A stretch of DNA of 64,000 nt from Halarcobacter sp. (GTDB taxonomy: Bacteria > Campylobacterota > Campylobacteria > Campylobacterales > Arcobacteraceae): contig NZ_OY780939.1 in the NCBI RefSeq assembly GCF_963675975.1, positions 2,480,001-2,544,000 on the forward strand, read 5' to 3'. Each line of letters opens with the position of its first letter. The first letter of the stretch is position 1. Under the pieces are notes generated by a model. The model was given only the letters and a program-made list of their open reading frames with translations. It was not told the origin of the DNA and made no database searches. The translations under genes and the position numbers were made by a program. This document shows positions 13,159-42,572 of this stretch, one piece after another.

Positions 13159-14638
13159 CTAGGAAATATTTCTCAAAACTTCCAATATCTTCACCATAGC
13201 CAAAGTATCAAGTTTACAATACGCTAAAAGTGAAGTTCTCATCTTTTGTTTTTCTTCTTCATCAAGCTTTGATAGATTTGCAAAGGCATTCATAGCTTGG
13301 CTTCCGTTTTGTACTCCATCTAACTCTTTGTAGGCTTTTTCAAACTCTGGAACTAAGGCAGGTAATACATACTTGATAGAGTAACTTCCTTGCATACTTG
13401 GTGTTACATACCATTTCTTTTGGAAAGGTGTCATTAGGTCTTGCATATTTTCGTTTATGGCTAGTAAGTGAGTACTAAGCTCTGGAAAAAGATTTGCTAG
13501 TCTTTTTATCACACCTTTTTCAAAACTCATATTGTAAGCCAATACTGTAACATCACTTGGGATATCTTCACATAGCTTTTGTGCTAACTCATATCTACTG
13601 TCTACACTATCTACACTCAAATACTCTTTATGAATTAGAGTACCATCTTCATACTCTATATGAAGTGAATATTGAAAAGGGATTTGCTCGAAGGGTTTTA
13701 TGCCTTTGTACTCTGGTATTGCTTGTTGGTAGGTTTCAAAGTCTAAGTGATATATTGGGTATGTGAGGTTTTCTAAAAAAGCTTTGATATTTTCTTTGTC
13801 TATGTGGTTTGTTTTTGATTTGTAGTTTTCTACTGCTTGAGCTTGATTTGCAGTCATATCAAAATCTTCTGGGATATCTTCTATATCTATGATACCTTGA
13901 TTGTATAACTCAACTTGCTTTTTACTTCCTAGATTGAAAATATTAAATATAGAATAATCTGGAATTTGTCTTTGTACTTTCCAACAATAGTTTTTCGCAT
14001 CACACTCATAAGGTTTGTTACAATGTTTTCCTATATCTATATCTGGCTCATTTACTTTGTCTTCAAGATAAGTTTCAAACTCTTTTAATATGACGGGGAT
14101 ATTTGACTGTAGATTTTGTACTTCACTTGTGACATCAACTATTTTAAATAGTTTGTCTAGTTCTAAACTCTCATCTCTTACATACTCATTGTTTATATGC
14201 ACTACACTTGCACTTTTTATACTAAAGCCTATGTTTTTTAGAACATAATACTGAATAGATACATCATGAAGATATATATCCTTTACCTCAGTAGAACTTT
14301 TAACCTCATAGATAGATACACCATCATCTTCTACTTTTAAAATATCTACCATGATAAGTATACCCTCAAAGTTAAAAGTAGCTTCGTAGATATTTGATAC
14401 ACCTTCTTTTAGCCATTCTTTTGTAGTAGATATCATCTCATCATAGTTTGTAGTGTATGTTACTTCTTTTCCATCAGGTAAAAGCTTGCAAGCTAAATCT
14501 CCTACTATATTTCCTGTATCAAATATAGCTTGTGCTTGTTCATCTGGTGGTGCTAGAACATTTGGCTTATATTTTTTAAGCCAAAGTGCTTTTGGGCATT
14601 GGATGCCTTTTGTGTAGAGGGGATTTAGATAGGTTCAT
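13159..14638 (-). pseudogene. DUF2779 nuclease (Cas4-like + DEDD exonuclease), frameshifted near the start
   Basis: The open frame 13159-14436 (425 codons) begins inside the protein. The missing 67 N-terminal codons are present upstream in another frame: MNLSKS starts at ATG 14638 and, after one extra G in GGGG at 14619-14622, the family sequence continues as LYTKGIQCPKALWLKKY. Restored length is 492 residues. Domains of the intact part: PD-(D/E)xK nuclease with Asp31 and EVK at 44-46, three Cys at 139, 145 and 151 that with the N-terminal CPKALW Cys would form a 4Fe-4S site, then a DEDDy exonuclease-like domain with DFET (about 232-235) and YCKLDT (406-411). The frameshift removes the fourth Cys. 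A sequencing error in a 4-base run is possible. Confidence 0.8.
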
Positions 14639-38124: not shown

Positions 38125-39462
38125 GTGAATAAATTTTCACGCATTGGATTTATTTTTGCAGCAGCTGGTTCAGCCGTTGGATTGGGTAATATATGGAAAT
38201 TTCCATATGTAACTGGAGAGTTTGGTGGTGGTGCTTTTGTACTTGTTTATCTACTCTGTATTGTGTTTATTGGTCTTGTAGTATTTATTGCAGAATCATT
38301 TTTAGGACAATCTTCTGAAGTAAATGTTTCCTCAACTTTTATAAAAGTTTCAAAAAGTAAAAACTCAAACTGGAAGTATGGTGGATTTATGGTTTTTGCA
38401 GGACTTATAATTCTATCGTTTTATTCAGTTGTTTTAGGATGGATACTAAATTATATAGTTTTATCTTTTGGAAACTTACCAAACAGTGCAGAACTGGCAG
38501 GAAGTGGTTTTAATCAACTTGTATCAGAAGATATTGGATTACAAATAGTATTTCATAGTATTGTTGCTTTAATTACAATCTTTATTGTACTTCGTGGAAT
38601 AAAAGAAGGAATTGAAAAAATCAACCTAATACTAATGCCTTTATTAGGAATAATATTATTTGGATTATTAGCTTATGCTTTAAGTTTAGATAGTTTTTCA
38701 AAAGCTGTTTCATTTATGTTTAGTGCTAATTGGAGTAAAATAGATGAAAATGCTCTTTTAGCAGCATTAGGACAAGCATTCTTTACACTATCTTTAGGTA
38801 TTGGTACTATCATGACCTATTCTGCTTCTTTACCAAAAAATGAGAACTTTATTAAATCTTCATTTTATGTTGCTATAGTTGATACATCTATTGCAATAAT
38901 TGCTGGGCTTATAATCTTCTCTTTTCTTTTTGAAGCTGGTGCACAAAGTTCAGCTGGTCCTGGTTTAGTTTTTATCTCATTACCAGTGATCTTTGGACAA
39001 TGGGGTACTTTAGGAAATATTATTGCAATCTCATTTTTCTCAGCACTATTATTTGCAGGTATTACATCTGCTGTTTCAATGATTGAACCAGTTTTAATGC
39101 TTTTTATAGAAAGATTTAATATGACTAGAAAAAAAGCAGTAATAATTTGTGGTTCAATATTTTATCTTCTAGGAATAATAGCTTTACTTTCTATGTCTAA
39201 TGCATTTAAAGATTCCCTTACTTTCTTTGGTAAAAATGCATTTGATTGGATGGACTTTATAACTTCATCTGTATCGATGCCTATAGCAGCAATAGTTACT
39301 TGTCTTTTTTTAGGATTTTTTGTTGATAAACAAACAATTCAAAATAAATTCACTCAACACGTTTCAATAGGTATGTTTAATATTTGGTATGTATTAGTTA
39401 AATATATTGTACCTTTAGCAATTACAATATTACTTTTAAATAAATTAGGAGTTATTCAATAA
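38125..39462 (+). CDS. Neurotransmitter:sodium symporter family transporter (first of pair)
   Basis: LeuT-fold Na+-coupled amino acid or small-solute uptake carrier. 445 residues, about 11 TM helices. TM1 carries AAAGSAVGLGNIWKFPYVTGEFGGGAF, the sodium- and substrate-binding region (about 11-36; landmark only). It starts at GTG 38125 with AAAAAGG upstream. The stop overlaps the next start (TAATG). The substrate is not predictable. Confidence 0.93.
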   Translation: MNKFSRIGFIFAAAGSAVGLGNIWKFPYVTGEFGGGAFVLVYLLCIVFIGLVVFIAESFLGQSSEVNVSSTFIKVSKSKNSNWKYGGFMVFAGLIILSFYSVVLGWILNYIVLSFGNLPNSAELAGSGFNQLVSEDIGLQIVFHSIVALITIFIVLRGIKEGIEKINLILMPLLGIILFGLLAYALSLDSFSKAVSFMFSANWSKIDENALLAALGQAFFTLSLGIGTIMTYSASLPKNENFIKSSFYVAIVDTSIAIIAGLIIFSFLFEAGAQSSAGPGLVFISLPVIFGQWGTLGNIIAISFFSALLFAGITSAVSMIEPVLMLFIERFNMTRKKAVIICGSIFYLLGIIALLSMSNAFKDSLTFFGKNAFDWMDFITSSVSMPIAAIVTCLFLGFFVDKQTIQNKFTQHVSIGMFNIWYVLVKYIVPLAITILLLNKLGVIQ

Positions 39463-40796
39463 TGAACACATTTTCAAGAATTGGTTTTATATTAGCAGCA
39501 GCAGGTTCTGCTGTTGGTTTAGGAAATATATGGAAATTTCCATATGTAACAGGAGAAAACGGTGGAGGCGCATTTGTTTTAATATATTTACTTGCAATTG
39601 CTTTAATTGGTTTAACTATATTTATAGCAGAATCATACATAGGGAAAGAAGCAAGAACAAATGCAGCACATGCTTATCAGTTGGTTTCAAAAAGTAAAAA
39701 GAGAGCATGGAGATGGGCTGGATTTCAAATCTTTACAGGTATAGTGATTTTATCATTTTATGCATTTATTATTGGTTGGATTTTAAACTATATTTTACTT
39801 TCATTTAGTGGTTTTCCAAGTGATATAAAAGAAGCTGAAAGTGTATTTACAAACCTTATAACTATGGAGATTGGAACACAAATACTGTTTCATACAATTG
39901 TTACACTAACTATTATATTTATTATCTTAAAAGGTGTAAAAGAGGGAATTGAAAAATTAAATCTGATTTTAATGCCACTTTTAGGATTGATATTAATTGG
40001 TTTATTATTATACTCTTTAACACTTGATTCTTTTTCACAAGCAATTGAGTTTATGTTTATGCCTGATTGGTCTAAAATAAATGAAAATGCAATTTTAGCA
40101 GCTGTAGGACAAGCATTTTTTACTCTTTCTCTTGGTATGGGTATTATTATCACTTATTCAGCTTCTATGGGAAAAGAAACAAACTTTGTAAAATCTTCAA
40201 TTATGGTTGCTTTGGTTGATACTTCTGTTGCTATTGTTGCAGGTATTATTATCTTCTCATTTCTTTTTTCAGCTGGGGCTGAAAGTACAGCTGGACCTGG
40301 TTTAGTTTTTATCTCTTTACCACTTATATTCTCAACTTGGGGAATTTTTGGTCAGATAGTTGGTTGTGCCTTTTTTGTAGCACTATTATTTGCAGGGATT
40401 ACTTCAGCGGTATCTTTACTAGAGCCACCATTGATGTATTTAATGGAAAAATTTAATATGACAAGAGTAAAAGCTACTATTATAGCTGGAACTTTTTTCT
40501 ATATTTTAGGAATTGTAGCTTTATTATCTATGAGTAAAAGTTTTGGAGAACTTCTAACATTTTTTGATAAAAGTTTATTTGACTGGTTAGATTATTTAAC
40601 TTCATCAATTGCTATGCCTATTTCTGGATTTATAACTTGTATTTTCTTAGGATATTTTGTAGATCAAGAGGAATTAAAAGCAAAATTTACAACTCATGTA
40701 AATATTAGACTATATAAAGTTTGGTTAGTATTAATTAGATTTGTAGTTCCAGTTGCAATTGTATTATTATTTTTAAATAAACTTGGAGTTATTTAG
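39462..40796 (+). CDS. Neurotransmitter:sodium symporter family transporter (second of pair)
   Basis: 444 residues, close paralogue of the preceding gene with near-identical N-termini (FSRIGFI.AAAGSAVGLGN) and C-termini (LNKLGVI). Same fold and 11-TM layout. The sequences have diverged substantially in the middle, so the duplication is old and the two may differ in substrate or work as a pair. Translationally coupled to the first copy by TAATG. Confidence 0.93.
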   Translation: MNTFSRIGFILAAAGSAVGLGNIWKFPYVTGENGGGAFVLIYLLAIALIGLTIFIAESYIGKEARTNAAHAYQLVSKSKKRAWRWAGFQIFTGIVILSFYAFIIGWILNYILLSFSGFPSDIKEAESVFTNLITMEIGTQILFHTIVTLTIIFIILKGVKEGIEKLNLILMPLLGLILIGLLLYSLTLDSFSQAIEFMFMPDWSKINENAILAAVGQAFFTLSLGMGIIITYSASMGKETNFVKSSIMVALVDTSVAIVAGIIIFSFLFSAGAESTAGPGLVFISLPLIFSTWGIFGQIVGCAFFVALLFAGITSAVSLLEPPLMYLMEKFNMTRVKATIIAGTFFYILGIVALLSMSKSFGELLTFFDKSLFDWLDYLTSSIAMPISGFITCIFLGYFVDQEELKAKFTTHVNIRLYKVWLVLIRFVVPVAIVLLFLNKLGVI

Positions 40797-40798
40797 TT

Positions 40799-40824
40799 AG
40801 AAGATAGGTTCAAACCTATCTTCT
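40799..40824. other. Long hairpin at the convergent 3' ends
   Basis: A 12-bp perfect inverted repeat (AGAAGATAGGTT / AACCTATCTTCT) with a 2-nt centre, including the stop codon of the DEAD-box helicase and lying three bases after the symporter stop. It probably stops both converging transcripts although neither side has a run of T. Confidence 0.5.
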
Positions 40825-42090
40825 AAAACTTCTGTTAGAATCTCTTTTTGTAGTTTTTTTAGATTTTGCAGGCTCTTTTTTTACAGGAGCTTTTCTACCC
40901 TTTTTCTCACTTAATTTCTTTTTAGCTTGAACTTTTTGTCTTGGTTGTCTATCTTTTAAAGGGAAAGCCTCATGAACTTCTCTTTTTACATTTAGTTTTA
41001 AATTTCTTTCTATTTTTGTAAAATGATTATAATCTTCTGTTGTAAGTATAGAGATTACTTCACCTGTATTTCCAGCTCTACCTGTTCGCCCTACTCTATG
41101 GGTAAAATCATCTGTTGTTTCAGGTAAATTGTAATTTATAACTAATGGAAGTTTTTCGATATCTAAACCTCTTCCTGCTATATCTGTAGCTATTAAAACT
41201 TGTATTTTTTTATTTCTAAAATCTTTTATTGATTGAACTCTTTGTTTATATTCAATATCTCCATGTATAGCAGCTGCTTTTACACCTTGAGTATTAAAAT
41301 GTTCAATTGCAGCATCAGCTGCATCTTTTTTATTTACAAAAAGTAAGATTTGATCATAAGTAGAATCTTTTATAAGTTTTGTAACTAACTCTTTCTTTTT
41401 CTTTTTATCAATTTTAAATGCACGATGGTTTATTAAGTTTACTTTATCCCTTCTATCGTGTACTTGAACAGTAACTGGTTCATTTAAAAACTCTTTTGCA
41501 AGTTTATTGATATTTTGTGAGATTGTTGCAGAACACATAACAATTTGTCTTCTTGGTGAACACATTGAAAATATCTCTTCAATCTCTTCTAAAAACCCCA
41601 TCTCAAGCATTGTATCAGCTTCATCTAAAACAATAAAATTTACAGAACTTAAATCAAGAATCTCTTCTCTAACTAAATCTAAAAGTCTACCTGCTGTTGC
41701 AACTACAATATCAACACCAGTTGCAATTACTTGAGATTGTTTAGTTCTACTAGCTCCACCCATAACTTTTGTATGTTTTACTTTTAAAAACTGCCCATAA
41801 TCAGCTAAAGATTTTGAAACTTGTTCTACAAGTTCCCTTGTAGGAACTAAAACAAGTCCTCTTAAAACTCTATTATTAAAATTTAAATTAGAGTTTATTT
41901 TATTTAACATTGGAAGTACATATGCAGCTGTTTTCCCTGTACCTGATTTAGATGCAGCAATAACATCAATCCCTTTATTAACTATAGGAATTACTTTTTT
42001 TTGAACCTTTGTTGGAGTATCATAATCTTGTAACTCTATTGCTTTTAAAATAGATGGATTTAAATTTAATTCAGCGAATTTATTATTAAT
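40816..42090 (-). CDS. DEAD-box RNA helicase, apparent AUU start
   Basis: Unwinds or remodels RNA. From the only plausible start, ATT at 42088-42090, the protein has 424 residues: Q motif YDTPTKVQ (23-30), motif I SKSGTGKT (47-54), PTRELVEQ, DEAD as VLDEAD, SAT as CSATIS, and the C-terminal VGRTGRAG. The first in-frame ATG is at 41910, inside the ATP-binding domain and after motif I, so starting there would make a dead protein. Between the upstream stop and the Q motif there is no ATG, GTG or TTG in frame. AAAGGA ends six bases before the ATT. The tail is Lys/Arg-rich, RhlE/CsdA-like. Confidence 0.85.
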   Translation of the reverse strand: MNNKFAELNLNPSILKAIELQDYDTPTKVQKKVIPIVNKGIDVIAASKSGTGKTAAYVLPMLNKINSNLNFNNRVLRGLVLVPTRELVEQVSKSLADYGQFLKVKHTKVMGGASRTKQSQVIATGVDIVVATAGRLLDLVREEILDLSSVNFIVLDEADTMLEMGFLEEIEEIFSMCSPRRQIVMCSATISQNINKLAKEFLNEPVTVQVHDRRDKVNLINHRAFKIDKKKKKELVTKLIKDSTYDQILLFVNKKDAADAAIEHFNTQGVKAAAIHGDIEYKQRVQSIKDFRNKKIQVLIATDIAGRGLDIEKLPLVINYNLPETTDDFTHRVGRTGRAGNTGEVISILTTEDYNHFTKIERNLKLNVKREVHEAFPLKDRQPRQKVQAKKKLSEKKGRKAPVKKEPAKSKKTTKRDSNRSFRR

Positions 42091-42102
42091 AACTTATCCT
42101 TT
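42088..42102 (-). promoter_or_regulatory. Ribosome-binding site and AUU initiation codon of the DEAD-box helicase
   Basis: AAAGGA (42097-42102), six spacer bases, then ATT (42088-42090). The RBS overlaps the stop codon of the preceding gene. Rare AUU starts are known for infC and pcnB in E. coli, where they make translation sensitive to IF3. Confidence 0.6.
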
Positions 42103-42427
42103 AATATATACTTGACATAACTTCATCATCTAAGTATGAATCGATTTTTTTTGTTAATTCTTCAAATGACATTGTACCGTTTTTATTAAAAAGAACAATC
42201 TCTTCTCCAAAATCATTTTTAATAAAATGTTCCTCTTTTTTAACTTTTTTATAAAATGCTTTCATCTCTTCTGGTGAATCCAAATCGTTATATAAAAACC
42301 AATTAGCAGTAGTATCTTCCACTCTGATTAATCCATAAGTTTTTGCATCATCAACATAATCTTGAATTGTTCCATTATCAAATTTTGCACCAACAACTAT
42401 ATCATTTTCATTTAAAATCATTTCCAT
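42101..42427 (-). CDS. Conserved hypothetical protein, 108 aa
   Basis: Not recognised. The start is taken at ATG 42427 (MEMILNENDIVVG); an alternative ATG lies six bases later, and the longer frame to 42511 adds an unlikely Leu/Ile/Lys-rich leader. Acidic, soluble, with DDAKTYGLIRVEDTTANWFLY in the middle and a late FNKNGTMSFEELTKKID. It directly precedes and is probably co-transcribed with the DEAD-box helicase. Confidence 0.65.
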   Translation of the reverse strand: MEMILNENDIVVGAKFDNGTIQDYVDDAKTYGLIRVEDTTANWFLYNDLDSPEEMKAFYKKVKKEEHFIKNDFGEEIVLFNKNGTMSFEELTKKIDSYLDDEVMSSIY

Positions 42428-42572
42428 TTTGTAAAAACCTTGAACCTTTATAATGCGCAATAATAGCAAGATTTTGATTAAATGTTGTTTTTTGATTTTT
42501 AGAAATAACATATAATATATTTTTATATTTTTTAAAGTATTTAGATGATAATATTTTTATTAAAGGATGAAT

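Follow-up and report, generated by a model that had tools for sequence, protein, structure and literature searches.

A conserved AUU, AUA or AUC codon as the apparent start of a DEAD-box RNA helicase gene in the Arcobacteraceae

A DEAD-box RNA helicase gene of Halarcobacter sp. appears to start with AUU, and comparison with its orthologs makes it very probable that this start is genuine and under selection. The whole bacterial family Arcobacteraceae keeps AUU, AUA or AUC (AUH; ATH in the DNA) as the start of this gene, the codon drifting among the three and never becoming a canonical ATG, GTG or TTG, and a second helicase of the family shares the trait. To our knowledge, very few bacterial genes keep such starts. 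No earlier report of a helicase with an AUU start, of Arcobacter start codons or of a non-AUG DbpA was found in the open-licence papers searched.

Results

The window, a stretch of 64,000 nucleotides, belongs to a complete genome of 3.27 Mb whose relatives are Arcobacteraceae. The helicase gene lies on the minus strand (40816-42090) and has 424 codons and a TAG stop codon (40818-40816). Its product carries the DEAD and Helicase_C domains (PF00270, 152.7 bits, and PF00271, 107.2 bits, both above cut-off), the Q motif, Walker A, DEAD, SAT and motif VI, and a basic C-terminal tail, and is thus a DEAD-box RNA helicase. No curated cut-off of the NCBIfam equivalogs (RhlE, CshA, SrmB, DbpA) was reached; the nearest models are RhlE1, RhlE and CshA, with the top score for RhlE1 (372 bits vs a cut-off of 750), and the DbpA RNA-binding domain was not found. 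Convergent with the helicase gene, two adjoining genes on the plus strand (38125-40796) encode similar membrane proteins of 445 and 444 aa, a pair that resembles tandem sodium-dependent transporters.

Read on the minus strand, the 5' end of the helicase frame consists of an in-frame TAA (42096-42094), GTT (42093-42091) and ATT (42090-42088), followed by AAT AAT AAA TTC GCT GAA TTA. Only GTT and ATT separate the stop codon, which limits the possible starts, from the coding region, and AAAGGA (42102-42097), a Shine-Dalgarno sequence, precedes ATT by 6 bases. The earliest in-frame ATG is at 41910, downstream of Walker A, and the open reading frame from there is 364 aa; the 59 N-terminal codons ahead of it (42087-41911) encode the Q motif and Walker A. 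An earlier note on this DNA had described this layout, with both motifs ahead of the first ATG, no ATG, GTG or TTG between the stop and the conserved start region (GTT ATT AAT AAT AAA), and AAAGGA six bases before ATT, and the sequence agrees with it at each point.

A search of 104 Arcobacteraceae genomes at a threshold of E 1e-99 gave helicase orthologs in 81, spanning 15 of 20 genera, and the start region was read in 77. The start codon is ATC in 37, ATA in 23 and ATT in 17 of these, and canonical in none. An AAAGGA-like sequence stands 6 bases before ATH in 74 orthologs and 5 or 7 bases before it in the other three, and no ATG, GTG or TTG with a Shine-Dalgarno sequence was found at or shortly upstream of the start in any of the 77. 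The strongly conserved alignment columns are AAGGA, which is nearly invariant, AT, and then AAA and TTT; the third base of the start is A, C or T freely and never G. The position of the upstream stop codon varies, and in several species a single codon (GTT, ATT, AAG, AAT, TTT or CTC) stands between it and ATH; because that codon differs between species, ATH is the sole start candidate common to all. The gene thus combines the lack of a usable ATG, GTG or TTG with an ATH codon, a Shine-Dalgarno sequence and conservation across species. The AUU start proposed in the earlier note is therefore borne out as AUU, AUA or AUC with a conserved Shine-Dalgarno sequence and spacing, and an ATG in relatives, which the same note had named as the observation that would speak against it, was looked for and is absent from all 77 orthologs, including that of the 95%-identical sister, in which the start is ATA. 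One further homolog with an ATG start (L038, 41% identity) was excluded; its genus has no ortholog passing E 1e-99, and it is probably not an ortholog but would otherwise be the single possible exception to the ATH rule.

On a well-supported maximum-likelihood protein tree, at least 13 changes occurred among ATT, ATA and ATC, whereas a canonical codon never arose. ATC accounts for 48% of the helicase starts vs 11% of the isoleucine codons in the same genes, so the start does not behave like an ordinary internal isoleucine codon, a comparison that shared ancestry makes rough. Third-position G is rare in these genes, and the absence of G at the start is for that reason weak evidence when taken alone; the argument that AUH is retained is carried by the contrast with paralogs and outgroups. 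All 18 helicase homologs taken from the class outside this family carry ATG, GTG or TTG at the start, and for two other DEAD-box paralogs within the Arcobacteraceae the start is canonical in 29 of 29 and 30 of 30. The start region folds more weakly than mononucleotide-shuffled sequence (mean -3.0 vs -4.0 kcal/mol) and thus gives no sign of a leader structure.

The fourth DEAD-box paralog, DbpA (above the NCBIfam equivalog cut-off and with the DbpA RNA-binding domain), behaves differently from the other two. Among the Arcobacteraceae, 39 of 69 DbpA genes have no canonical start before the conserved region and carry ATH near a Shine-Dalgarno-like sequence; the copy in the same genome (C1:1864687-1866054) also lacks a canonical start and has ATA after AGGA. 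Outside the family the DbpA start is canonical in 21 of 21, and that of E. coli MG1655 dbpA is GTG by annotation. The start state of DbpA changed 8 to 11 times on the tree between non-canonical and ATG, GTG or TTG. Such repeated switching indicates that selection can readily arrive at canonical codons in these genomes, and the helicase described here never took them.

General laxity of start codons in this genome was considered and is not supported. The window and a 400 kb sample (about 464 kb together) were scanned by scoring how coding-like the sequence ahead of the first canonical start is in 385 gene-like open reading frames, a procedure that detects only a long coding stretch before that codon and misses genes in which a canonical codon falls near the start by chance. 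Most high-scoring frames are short and resemble antisense shadows of real genes. The long frames with clearly high scores are the helicase gene and one other, a 491-codon frame on the minus strand (13162-14634) with no canonical start before coding-like sequence and, at E 1e-20, no match in NCBIfam; an ATG close by on the upstream side, but in a different frame, makes this gene appear frameshifted near its start, whether naturally or by sequencing error. No other intact gene of the helicase's sort was seen in the roughly 464 kb.

Discussion

The best reading of these observations is a conserved and deliberately weak start of the kind known from infC, pcnB, ccpN and sigR. The strong and exactly spaced Shine-Dalgarno sequence would direct translation from AUU, and selection would hold the start weak while leaving its third base free to vary between A, C and U. 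Initiation factor IF3 destabilises 30S complexes formed on such codons. The tie to initiation factor status suggested in the earlier note is plausible from how IF3 is known to behave, and we lean slightly towards control of the helicase start by IF3, under which a low helicase level would be expected to rise once free 30S subunits exceed the factor.

A rival to the regulatory part alone accepts the AUH start as genuine and has it hold the helicase at a steady low level, with nothing regulated. This is a serious and plausible alternative, if not a probable one, as unregulated weak expression would leave the same sequence pattern. An AUH codon combined with a strong Shine-Dalgarno sequence is one way to reach a favoured low level of helicase, and the title of Binns and Masters 2002, cited in PMC13009471, describes translation of E. 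coli pcnB as limited by its AUU start codon. The alternation of DbpA between AUH and AUG, GUG or UUG is likewise what tuning of a level would be expected to produce. However, the focal helicase never switched to GUG or UUG in 77 species, though both of these lower expression too, and the class of codons that it kept is the one against which IF3 discriminates.

Very improbable is the reading in which translation arrives from the gene upstream, through coupling or a frameshift, and ATT is no independent initiation codon. Upstream of the helicase, on the same strand, lies a small open reading frame (42101-42511) whose position is conserved within the genus; there its stop codon falls inside the Shine-Dalgarno sequence (TAAAGGA), which makes coupling possible in this genus. 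However, that gene is absent in most other genera and AAAGGA is still kept with its spacing of 6 bases to ATH, a TATAAT-like box is seen by eye about 30-60 bases before the start in these genera, and many species have in-frame stops one to a few codons upstream; coupling would in any case still require an initiation codon. Frameshifting or fusion with the upstream frame was rejected on the same grounds, as the upstream gene varies between genera and the start motif is constant.

Initiation at an internal ATG, with the N-terminal part of the protein not made, is less probable still. Gene finders limited to ATG, GTG and TTG would call such starts, either at 41910 or, in some other genera, at an in-frame ATG that lies nine codons downstream of ATH inside the Q-motif region. 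Neither candidate is preceded by a Shine-Dalgarno sequence, many orthologs lack such an ATG, and a start at 41910 drops the Q motif and Walker A. A DEAD-box helicase without the Q motif and the ATP-binding loop could not work. Over the 58-59 codons before the first ATG, 12 of 12 species pairs have a dN much lower than dS, which also holds for the remainder of the gene, and differences in this part concentrate at third positions; by this measure purifying selection acts at the protein level on the stretch ahead of the first ATG, and on this evidence and the ortholog comparison an internal start was rejected. A sequencing error or a strain-specific mutation of an ATG has a negligible probability, being excluded by ATH in all 77 species, drawn from 15 genera.

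Returning to a weak start that answers to IF3, a speculative extension is that it ties production of the helicase to an excess of 30S subunits, for example when 50S assembly lags; the idea comes from the AUH trait being common to the helicase and DbpA. DbpA is a 50S-assembly helicase in E. coli. The two helicases might then form an IF3-responsive set in which the AUH starts register how many free 30S subunits there are relative to IF3, a proposal that we consider rather unlikely as it stands. Under it, delays in large-subunit assembly or RNA unfolding would raise helicase synthesis, a homeostatic feedback joining ribosome assembly to initiation fidelity, with infC itself outside AUH control.

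Start codons outside the set AUG, GUG and UUG are repressed by IF3, and infC is the standard case (PMC5472188). The parallel with infC drawn in the earlier note does not carry over to this family, where infC starts with UUG, not with the AUU, AUA or AUC known from other bacteria, in 30 of 30 Arcobacteraceae examined (AAT TTG AGT downstream of a GGGAG- or AAGGA-like sequence; most have a stop codon shortly upstream). An autoregulatory IF3 loop like that of E. coli is thus not evident here.

The helicase offers a clean natural system in which to ask what purpose IF3-sensitive starts serve. There is also a practical side, as standard annotation may cut the Q motif and the ATP-binding loop off the Arcobacteraceae protein.

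Among known systems, the closest proteins are the RhlE/CshA-type helicases of other Campylobacterota, which have the same domains, about 40% identity and an alignable start region but, unlike the Arcobacteraceae helicase with its AUH codon, start with ATG, GTG or TTG (18/18). E. coli infC (AUU; ATC in Streptomyces and AUA in S. aureus) resembles the helicase in having a selected AUH start with an effective Shine-Dalgarno sequence, whereas infC encodes IF3 itself and so closes a feedback loop, and the gene here encodes an RNA helicase. E. coli pcnB, for poly(A) polymerase, is like the helicase an RNA-metabolism enzyme kept low by an AUU start, although the proteins are unrelated. In S. aureus, the starts of cvfC1 (AUU) and ccpN (AUA) are conserved and in poor medium yield about 10% of the expression obtained with AUG, and ccpN reaches up to 30% in rich medium (PMC13009471). 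These two genes share with the helicase a conserved AUH codon and a strong Shine-Dalgarno sequence; they encode a transcriptional repressor (ccpN) and a small protein (cvfC1) in a different phylum, and their initiation was demonstrated by retapamulin profiling (PMC13009471), whereas the helicase start is known from sequence and all three AUH codons interchange in it. Streptomyces sigR likewise has a genus-wide non-canonical start with a conserved ribosome-binding site that standard gene finders misannotate; its start codon is GTC or GTT rather than AUH, it encodes a sigma factor, and repression by IF3 from its GTC start was shown by experiment (PMC5472188), whereas the case for the helicase is drawn from sequence comparison.
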